From NCBI GenBank assembly GCA_944323675.1, contig CALUTK010000007.1:1-45253 (forward strand): 45,253 nt of DNA. Reading direction: 5' to 3'. A model generated the notes under the pieces. It did no database searches and was not told the DNA's origin. It was given only the letters and a program-made list of their open reading frames with translations. Position numbers and translations under genes: made by a program. Source of the DNA: Candidatus Gastranaerophilales bacterium. Its GTDB lineage: Bacteria; Cyanobacteriota; Vampirovibrionia; Gastranaerophilales; Gastranaerophilaceae. Of the stretch, positions 1 to 38,350 are shown one piece after another. Positions within the stretch are counted from its first letter, which is position 1; each line of letters starts with the position of its first letter.

Positions 1-59
1 CTGGATAGAGCAACCGCCTTCTAAGCGGTAGGTCATGCGTTCGAATCGCATCCAGGGTA
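1..59 (+). tRNA. tRNA-Arg(UCU), 5' end cut off by window edge
   Basis: The anticodon arm ACCGC/GCGGT encloses loop CTTCTAA, giving anticodon TCT (arginine, AGA codon). The T arm ATGCG-TTCGAAT-CGCAT and the 3' acceptor strand CCAGGGT plus discriminator A are intact. The first bases of the D arm and the 5' acceptor strand lie outside the window. No CCA is encoded after the discriminator base. Confidence 0.93.
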
Positions 60-62
60 AAT

Positions 63-93
63 AAAAAGGACGGGTTTATCTCGTCCTTTTTAT
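63..93 (+). terminator. Rho-independent terminator after tRNA-Arg
   Basis: The arms AAAAAGGACG (63-72) and CGTCCTTTTT (82-91) form a 10-bp stem with a 9-nt loop and a U-rich 3' arm. It sits directly behind the tRNA. A hairpin of the same design (A-run, GGA core, T-run) follows tRNA-Glu at 37971. Confidence 0.8.
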
Positions 94-306
94 TTACATT
101 GAATAGCGATGAGAACGCCGCTTGCGTTCGAGCGGATTTTCACTCTGCCGAACAAAACCTAACTAAATGTCCGGTTTTGTGAGAGTGGACGACGCGAGCG
201 TAAGCGAGTTAGTCCGGATAGCGAGAATATTGAGCCTGCTAAGCCGTCAGGCTTAAAGGTGAAACTATTCCAGCGTGGAGGAAATCCAAGACAATCGCAT
301 CCAGGG
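94..306 (+). repeat. tRNA-linked structured repeat element, copy 1
   Basis: This gene-free stretch shares blocks with 38014-38182 and 38266-38350: GCGGATTT, GTCCGGATAGCGA, ATTGAGCC, GCCGTCAGG and AAATCCAAGA. Hairpins visible here are GAACGC/GCGTTC, CACTCT..CAAAAC with GTTTTG..AGAGTG, GGAC/GTCC and AAGCC/GGCTT. GGATTT (134-139) can pair with AAATCC (282-287) and close the whole unit. It ends at 293-306 with AATCGCATCCAGGG, an exact copy of the tRNA-Arg 3' end at 44-57. Either a structured RNA or a small mobile element would fit. Confidence 0.75.
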
Positions 307-309
307 AAT

Positions 310-347
310 TTGTACAATATAAGCGGGTTTTAACCCGCTTTTTTATT
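310..347 (+). terminator. Hairpin between repeat element and fic gene
   Basis: The sequence has an AAGCGGG/CCCGCTT stem around a short TTTTAA loop, followed by a T-run (about 320-345). It lies 3' of the minus-strand fic gene and 3' of the plus-strand tRNA element, so it could terminate transcription from both sides. Confidence 0.6.
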
Positions 348-6353: not shown

Positions 6354-6427
6354 AATCCGTTCCTTTATTTGGTGTAAAATGTACACTAATGACTATATTA
6401 TGAAAACATTTTTATGTAAATACCTGA

Positions 6428-6751
6428 CTACTTAATTTTGAAAAACTTCTTCACAGACACGATTACTTTTGCAATTAATTTTGGGAGAGAGAAACCTACA
6501 TCATCATCAAAACCTTTTAAATCATCTAAATCTTTTTGAAAAACGAAGGTGTCATACTCATTTTTTTTGGAGAAGATACTTTCATCAAAGGCGTGTTGTT
6601 TCTTTTCTTCTTCCCTGCCTTCGCCCTGCTGCATATACCCGAGGTTCCCGCCGCCTCCGTCGTTATGCATACTTGCGGCCTCCCTGATAATCGGCTTTGT
6701 GCTTAGTACATTTACGTCGAAACCACTCATTTTCCTTTCCGGTTTACGCAC
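6428..6751 (-). CDS. Hypothetical small protein with amphipathic C-terminus
   Basis: The 107-residue protein has a glycine-rich patch (D-G-G-G-G-N) at about residues 31-36, an acidic middle, and a basic amphipathic C-terminal helix (KLIAKVIVSVKKFFKIK) that could bind a membrane surface. No family recognised. A ribosome site (AAAGG) lies about 10 nt before the ATG at 6751. An alternative ATG at 6730 has GGAAAGGAAA immediately adjacent, which is too close for good initiation. Confidence 0.65.
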   Translation of the reverse strand: MRKPERKMSGFDVNVLSTKPIIREAASMHNDGGGGNLGYMQQGEGREEEKKQHAFDESIFSKKNEYDTFVFQKDLDDLKGFDDDVGFSLPKLIAKVIVSVKKFFKIK

Positions 6752-37895: not shown

Positions 37896-37967
37896 AGCGG
37901 TATCGTCTAGTGGTTAGGACGGGAGATTCTCATTCTCCAAACAGGGGTTCAATTCCCCTTACCGCCG
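37896..37967 (+). tRNA. tRNA-Glu(CUC)
   Basis: The anticodon arm GGAGA/TCTCC encloses loop TTCTCAT, giving CTC (glutamate, GAG codon). The D arm CGTCTAGTGGTTAGGAC and T arm AGGGG-TTCAATT-CCCCT are standard. The acceptor AGCGGTA pairs with TACCGCC except at the terminal position (A1 against C72). The usual pair in tRNA-Glu is G1-C72. No CCA encoded. Confidence 0.92.
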
Positions 37968-37970
37968 AAT

Positions 37971-38005
37971 AAAAAGGAGAATGCACCTGTTGTATTCTCC
38001 TTTTT
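37971..38005 (+). terminator. Terminator after tRNA-Glu
   Basis: AAAAAGGAGAAT (37971-37982) pairs with ATTCTCCTTTTT (37994-38005); a T-rich right arm provides the U tract. Confidence 0.85.
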
Positions 38006-38009
38006 ATTT

Positions 38010-38182
38010 AGGATAAATGGCGCATCGGAACCCCACAAGTCAGAGACTTGTCAGGGGTTCAGCGGATTTGCGGACGGACGTCAGTCCGGATAGCGAACGG
38101 ATTGAGCCGTCAGGAGCTATGCTCCGAAGGCGAAACTCCGTGAGCATGGAGCAAATCCAAGAAAATTTCCCTTACCGCCGAA
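38010..38182 (+). repeat. tRNA-linked structured repeat element, copy 2
   Basis: The stretch shares the blocks GCGGATTT, GTCCGGATAGCGA, ATTGAGCC, GCCGTCAGG and AAATCCAAGA with copy 1. Hairpins: GAACCCC/GGGGTTC, GGAC/GTCC, GGAGC/GCTCC, CTCC/GGAG. GGATTT (38064-38069) can pair with AAATCC (38153-38158). The element ends with ATTTCCCTTACCGCCGAA (38165-38182), matching the tRNA-Glu 3' end (37952-37969) at 17 of 18 positions. Same architecture, different stem sequences from copy 1. Confidence 0.8.
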
Positions 38183-38265: not shown

Positions 38266-38350
38266 AGGGGTTCCGCGGATTTGCACTTTGCCGAACAAAA
38301 CAATCCGGTGAATTGTTTTGTGAAATGGGACTTAAGTCCGGATGGTAAGT
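38266..38350 (+). repeat. tRNA-linked element, partial copy 3
   Basis: AGGGGTTCCGCGGATTTGC matches the corresponding part of copy 2 at almost all positions, and GCACTTTGCCGAACAAAAC matches copy 1. Hairpins CACTTT..CAAAACAATT/AATTGTTTTG..AAATGG and GGACTT/AAGTCC are present. GTCCGGAT remains, but the 3' blocks (ATTGAGCC and AAATCC) and a tRNA 3' end are missing. Confidence 0.7.

Follow-up and report, generated by a model that had tools for sequence, protein, structure and literature searches.

Why should two tRNA genes with unrelated anticodons each be followed by a second copy of their own 3' end, with a similar block of foldable sequence in between? This question is raised by the window, i.e., the whole stretch of 45,253 nucleotides analysed here (contig CALUTK010000007.1), which belongs to a 1.81-Mb metagenome-assembled genome (MAG) of a Candidatus Gastranaerophilales bacterium, hereafter G000. 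Integration into tRNA genes that leaves a displaced gene fragment is an established process, known from the islands and satellites of tRNA and tmRNA genes, associated with integrases of the tyrosine class and catalogued in the Islander database (PMC4383910).

Anatomy of the two units in the window

An initial annotation, made from the letters of the window, described two tRNA-linked copies of one unit, and both proved to be real, as the shared islands, the named stems and the copies of the tRNA ends (14/14 in one, one mismatch in the other) are all present in the sequence. In each, the order is tRNA, terminator-like hairpin, second hairpin (P0), folded body and 3'-end copy of that tRNA. The unit as annotated stands but its extent has been redrawn, since the body proper occupies 132-293 and 38062-38164, and a third copy, consisting of the 5' part only, lies at 38275-38344. 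The features are as follows (coordinates, strand, feature and basis).

1..57, +, 3' part of a tRNA-Arg gene, within which the contig begins (Rfam tRNA match cut at its 5' end; sequence)
59..95, +, terminator-like hairpin of unit 1, AAATAAAAAGGACG / CGTCCTTTTTATTT (sequence; such a hairpin lies inside the inserted DNA of filled/empty pairs)
113..129, +, P0 hairpin of unit 1, GAACGC-CGCTT-GCGTTC (sequence; tRNA-Arg T-arm 5' strand copied in the 3' arm)
132..293, +, body of unit 1, type A core, GCGGATTT...AAATCCAAGACA, within the T-loop of the tRNA-Arg copy (cmsearch match L002 171-291; family)
141..187, no strand, nested palindromic repeat CACTCTGCC...AGAGTG inside body 1 (missing from copy 2; recurs in other copies)
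294..306, +, tRNA-Arg 3'-end copy, ATCGCATCCAGGG (sequence)
321..346, +, hairpin and T-run after the tRNA-Arg copy, probably the original tRNA-Arg terminator (sequence; the same downstream sequence follows the second copy in genome G060)
37896..37967, +, complete tRNA-Glu (CTC) (ARAGORN and Rfam)
37968..38009, +, terminator-like hairpin of unit 2 (sequence)
38028..38060, +, P0 hairpin of unit 2, GAACCCC ... GGGGTTC, its 3' arm copying the tRNA-Glu T-arm 5' strand (sequence)
38062..38164, +, body of unit 2, type A core, within the T-loop of the tRNA-Glu copy (genome match C7:38062-38162)
38165..38182, +, copy of the T-arm 3' strand and acceptor 3' strand of tRNA-Glu, one mismatch (sequence)
38275..38344, +, third body, truncated to its 5' half, with the nested palindrome (sequence)

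The 3' end of tRNA-Arg, AATCGCATCCAGGG at 44-57, is found again at 293-306 (14/14), and that of tRNA-Glu, apart from one mismatch, at 38165-38182. The islands GCGGATTT, GTCCGGATAGCGA, ATTGAGCC and AAATCC stand at about 132, 212, 229 and 282 in copy 1, and the same series runs from 38062 onward in copy 2; both copies were also among the covariance-model (cmsearch) matches, copy 2 as C7:38062-38162 and copy 1 as 171-291 of locus L002. In the P0 hairpins (GAACGC/GCGTTC and GAACCCC/GGGGTTC) the 3' arm repeats the 5' strand of the T-arm of the same tRNA, so the duplicated tRNA segment measures about 25-30 nt and is split by the body. The same relation between P0 and T-arm was seen at other tRNAs. 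The units, of about 200 bp, lie outside called genes and leave no room for a recombinase gene. Many bodies of the genus also enclose a second dispersed palindrome (CACTCTGCCGAACAAAACAATCC...), which occurs in the window at 141-187 and about 38285-38330.

Fold and distribution of the body

The body was aligned and folded from 48 copies, and a covariance model was built on that alignment. Bodies are usually about 103-127 bp long, with the ends GCGGATTT...AAATCCAAGACA. Twelve full copies were found in G000 by exact or near-exact pattern and 14 by the covariance model, and pattern matches were many in Candidatus Gastranaerophilales MAGs. The model matched 125 of the 192 genomes in a sample of the order Gastranaerophilales and 82 of the 244 in a sample of the phylum, where no body match was observed beyond the order and all matching genomes listed belong to family f1; two matching genomes of family f6 come in addition from the order sample. 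With further candidates scored, the matches numbered 35 and 43 in two high-copy genomes and one or two in each of twenty few-copy genomes. Copy number thus ranges from 0 to 43 between relatives, with some sister species lacking any body copy. Among viral contigs, a first pattern gave one genuine copy, at 6384-6494 of an IMG/VR contig (L143) between phage-like genes (terminase-like by reading), and a second pattern gave an end match in two more contigs. Many bodies on G000 contigs C3, C7, C8, C50, C62 and C66 lie close to contig ends, at a distance of no more than a few hundred bases, and the repeat therefore probably breaks assemblies. Set against GC skew, strand gave 11/17 for type A matches and 5/8 for type C pattern hits in the relative G064, ratios that are uninformative as to strand bias.

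A conserved structure of several helices, formed by the body on its own strand, is well supported. Across 110 distinct copies, 96.8% of cells pair and two-sided changes occur in 20 of 29 pairs, which bears out the conserved folded unit with compensatory stems proposed from the window. Covariation reached 0.444 in these copies, as compared with 0.140 in shuffles and values up to 0.056 when the partners of the structure were slid, in an alignment fitted to the covariance model and so biased towards it; an independent MAFFT alignment showed two-sided changes in 15 of the 29 pairs. Type C bodies covary as well (17/23 pairs, 15 sequences). As the outer stem joins both ends of the body, its covariation could equally arise because a recombination site is symmetrical. 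On the given strand G-T cells are more frequent than A-C cells (65 and 21), and this strand is therefore probably the folding one.

Strong covariation and a G-T excess that points to one folded strand are also what a structured non-coding RNA would offer, made by read-through from the tRNA or from a promoter of its own, with the tRNA 3' copy as a leftover or processing signal. The body is, furthermore, oriented like the upstream tRNA in the 21 cases linked to one (see below). However, only 2.1% of the paired cells in the bodies are G-T, as against 7.3% in the tRNAs of G064, a low share that is no less compatible with folded single-stranded DNA than with RNA. The lack of a tRNA neighbour at most copies, the variation in copy number among relatives (0 to 43), the head-to-tail arrays and the nesting of copies also speak against an RNA gene, which we consider quite unlikely.

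Insertion at tRNA genes and at other sites

A same-strand tRNA lies upstream, 72-95 nt away, at 21 of the 127 distinct body sites in the examined loci, and ten anticodons are represented among these. That the unit is essentially tRNA-linked, as had been supposed, is thus not supported; the covariance-model search of relatives that the initial annotation called for did yield many copies with covarying stems, but most of them without a tRNA upstream. At 19 of the 21 linked sites, once the body is taken out together with two bases (usually CA), the flanks reconstitute the T-arm and acceptor of the tRNA concerned, be it Asp, Gly, Leu (two kinds), Arg (two kinds), Glu, Met or Ser. The two exceptions, one Lys and one Leu site, have altered right flanks. 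The body sits in the T-loop, after TTCR or TTCRA; in two further tRNA-Asp cases it has the opposite orientation. Simple target-site duplication of the body was ruled out, as the flanks rejoin cleanly after removal of the body and 2 nt.

We also examined one relative, G064 (12 contigs), as a whole. A 12-mer of the tRNA 3' end is repeated within 300 bp downstream at 7 of its 41 tRNAs and upstream at none (0/41), so the repeated ends are not due to chance. Cassettes stand at 7 of the 41 tRNAs, with type A bodies at Asn, Glu and Asp and type C bodies at Lys, Tyr, Gly and Leu; at tRNA-Asn the break falls in the T-stem 3' strand, not the T-loop.

Insertion can be followed at tRNA-Asp, where a survey of 3' ends found a single end in some species and two or three ends, 183-387 bp apart, in others. 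Between the empty site of G050 and the filled site of G096 the difference is an exact insertion of 229 bp with a type B body, and the flanks are identical (54/54 and 138/138, i.e., 192/192). Between the empty site on G000 contig C31 and the filled site of G064 it is 203 bp with a type A body, with flanks of 53/53 and 87/103. The inserted piece starts with the tRNA 3'-end copy, holds a new terminator and P0 hairpin, and finishes with the body. This clean type A pair concerns tRNA-Asp, not the tRNA-Arg or tRNA-Glu of the window. A third pair, G072/G051, aligns ambiguously, and G000 contig C58 has a second, partial tRNA-Asp end carrying a cassette. Precise insertions and the restored T-arm at 19 of 21 sites support the initial suggestion that a mini element enters tRNA genes at their 3' end and duplicates that end.

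The survey also returned larger intervals of 1.1 kb (with a Clp-N-like gene, by reading), 1.7, 13.4 and 38 kb. At loci L186, L294 and L295 (G031, G074 and G085) a gene that reads as Clp-N-domain-like lies between tRNA-Asp and the next, degenerate tRNA end, an interval that resembles a gene cassette in the same array. The 13.4-kb tRNA-Asp island (L304, G046:C7:41500-55800) has recombinases and a type C cassette at its far end and encodes, by reading, a DNA methyltransferase plus a helicase/restriction pair. In the 38-kb region between two tRNA-Asp ends (L284/L285, G067:C1:91400-130600) an integrase gene stands beside the tRNA and the repeat reaches the anticodon arm. At G064:C3:121163-146113 a tmRNA gene and a copy of its 3' end are separated by about 24.5 kb, and a type C cassette stands at the far end; this is probably an island.

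Could the units be scars of such islands, the tRNA copy being an old attR and the body a repeat that landed there later? tRNA-Asp does host islands, i.e., those of G067 (38 kb, with an integrase gene near the tRNA) and G046 (13.4 kb), and the tmRNA copy of G064, some 24.5 kb from its gene, points the same way. The empty/filled pairs, however, insert the tRNA end, terminator, P0 and body in one piece; neither the tRNA-Asp survey nor the tRNAs of G064 yielded a short-spaced tRNA copy without a body; and the repeat of the G067 island is longer, reaching the anticodon arm. We therefore regard an origin as scars as improbable.

Bodies are interchangeable. Near-identical left parts (TTAAAAGAAGCCACCTTGTGTGGC...GATAGTGG) precede different bodies at tRNA-Asp in G070, G096 and G055, and no left part without a body was seen. 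All body types finish in CAAGACA or a near variant, and other short modules with the same ends exist. At three loci bodies stand head to tail with the junction AAATCC-AAGACA-GCGGATTT, joined between CCAAGACA and GCGGATTT. The layout of the array junction, GCAAATCC-AAGACAGC-GGATTTGC, is one of 8-bp arms flanking 8 bp and resembles sites such as loxP and FRT, a likeness that we take as a lead only.

The copies that are not tRNA-linked occur within inverted repeats of other kinds, at the ends of genes, in tandem or within further repeats, and their target sites are heterogeneous. Inverted-repeat sites include CCTGAACT[body]TTTCAGG in G039 and GTTGC-type stems in G151, and some bodies lie, by reading, at the ends of reading frames. 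Flanking stems at these sites scored 5.29 against 4.58 in re-paired flanks (sd 0.16), a clear but small excess, so hairpin targeting is a tendency and not a rule. A further reading is structure-guided recombination, unrelated to integrons, in which interchangeable, folded, gene-free modules would enter the T-arms of many tRNAs, as well as other hairpins, through an enzyme that reads hairpin shape and tolerates different target sequences; we consider it rather unlikely.

Passive spread of a REP/BIME-like palindromic repeat by template switching and gene conversion, with the hairpins of tRNA arms as hot spots, would be in keeping with copies that are nested in, or hold, other palindromes, with flanks that form stems somewhat oftener than re-paired flanks, and with a left part in which the tRNA 3' end seems, by reading, to recur inverted and imperfectly. 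Nevertheless, it is unlikely in our judgement, as the exact ends, the 203- and 229-bp insertions, the 3' end common to several different bodies and the array junctions are hard to obtain without a site-specific enzyme.

Candidate mechanism and relation to known elements

The mobile-element nature of the units is well supported. We think it fairly probable that they are gene-less, non-autonomous, site-specific cassettes, moved in trans by a recombinase whose role we infer. The anatomy is that of site-specific tRNA integration, since the target is restored, a fragment is displaced, the ends are exact and there is no duplication from a staggered cut. At tRNA sites a unit of about 200 bp, made up of tRNA 3' end, terminator, P0 hairpin and body, would be inserted whole. 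It would enter at the T-loop, where its own 3'-end copy and new terminator would restore the tRNA, and the original 3' end would be pushed downstream, as by integrase-driven islands. The putative recombinase would act on the inverted-repeat ends of the cassette and on the T-arm, which is likewise an inverted repeat; both might serve as substrates in single-stranded, folded form. One recombinase for tRNAs of ten anticodons would be unusual, and this counts against the cassette reading, as do the heterogeneous targets and the modest stem excess away from tRNAs and the negative results, given below, on a linked recombinase gene, an autonomous version and a circular form.

A tyrosine recombinase acting in trans is a possible driver. 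Phage_integrase-family matches occur in all 30 genomes tested, with and without cores, and are uninformative because they are found in every genome. G000 has two such genes close together, which we take from their length to be XerC/XerD-like. Many Gastranaerophilales genomes hold, besides two longer ones, several stand-alone tyrosine-recombinase domains of ~180-220 aa. No recombinase gene tied to the cassettes was found, and the units themselves carry no gene. No convincing larger autonomous element with the same ends was seen in the 1.53 Mb of examined loci, and no circular cassette form was observed.

Other drivers were searched for as well. Y1 transposases (REP/RAYT, IS200/IS605) gave no match in G000, G039, G151 and others; DEDD transposases (IS110/IS1111) were not found in G000 or in any of 12 core-rich genomes tested (0/12); and reverse transcriptases (group II intron or retroelement) gave no match in G000, G064, G055, G056, G058, G117, G118 or G150. 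IS200/IS605/RAYT, IS110 and reverse transcriptase were rejected as drivers, as none was found in G000 and they are inconsistent or absent in core-rich genomes.

The initial annotation knew of no described family of this form, and neither Rfam nor the literature searched has supplied one. At the gathering score Rfam matched only tRNAs in the window, and a permissive threshold over 1-400 gave weak chance matches. No description was found in literature on Gastranaerophilales or Melainabacteria, or on such elements generally, in a search that covered only a minority of subscription journals.

Several known systems share part of this anatomy. Like tRNA/tmRNA islands, the cassettes split the target tRNA, restore it with an element-borne 3' end and leave a displaced fragment that marks the far end (PMC4383910). 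Unlike those islands, they measure about 200 bp, contain no gene and no integrase, and have interchangeable bodies, and one body family uses many tRNA kinds. They resemble MITEs and REP/BIME in being short, non-coding and dispersed, with inverted ends and high copy number in some genomes, but differ in their T-loop precision and lack of target-site duplication and, from REP, in that no Y1 transposase was found in G000 or two high-copy genomes. Head-to-tail units and folded sites conserved in structure recall integron cassettes and attC clusters without integrase (CALIN), whereas here the units carry no gene and the target is the tRNA T-arm; by reading, the cassette ends GCGGATTT / ATCCAAGACA presumably differ from the attC core sites of integrons. 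IS110/IS1111 elements, with their bridge or seek RNA (PMC11208160, PMC11187229), likewise combine site-specific mobility with a structured non-coding segment, but the DEDD transposase of that family was found in 0/12 core-rich genomes tested. What sets the cassettes apart is the small size, the absence of genes, the many tRNA kinds per body family and the exchange of bodies.

If this reading is true, few tRNA-integrating units would be as small as these cassettes, which are entirely non-coding and common in a group of uncultured gut bacteria. It would explain the repeated tRNA ends and probably many assembly breaks, the contig of the window itself starting inside such a tRNA, and it makes testable whether one recombinase uses the T-arms of many tRNAs by shape. 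The bodies would furthermore be new structured families for libraries such as Rfam.
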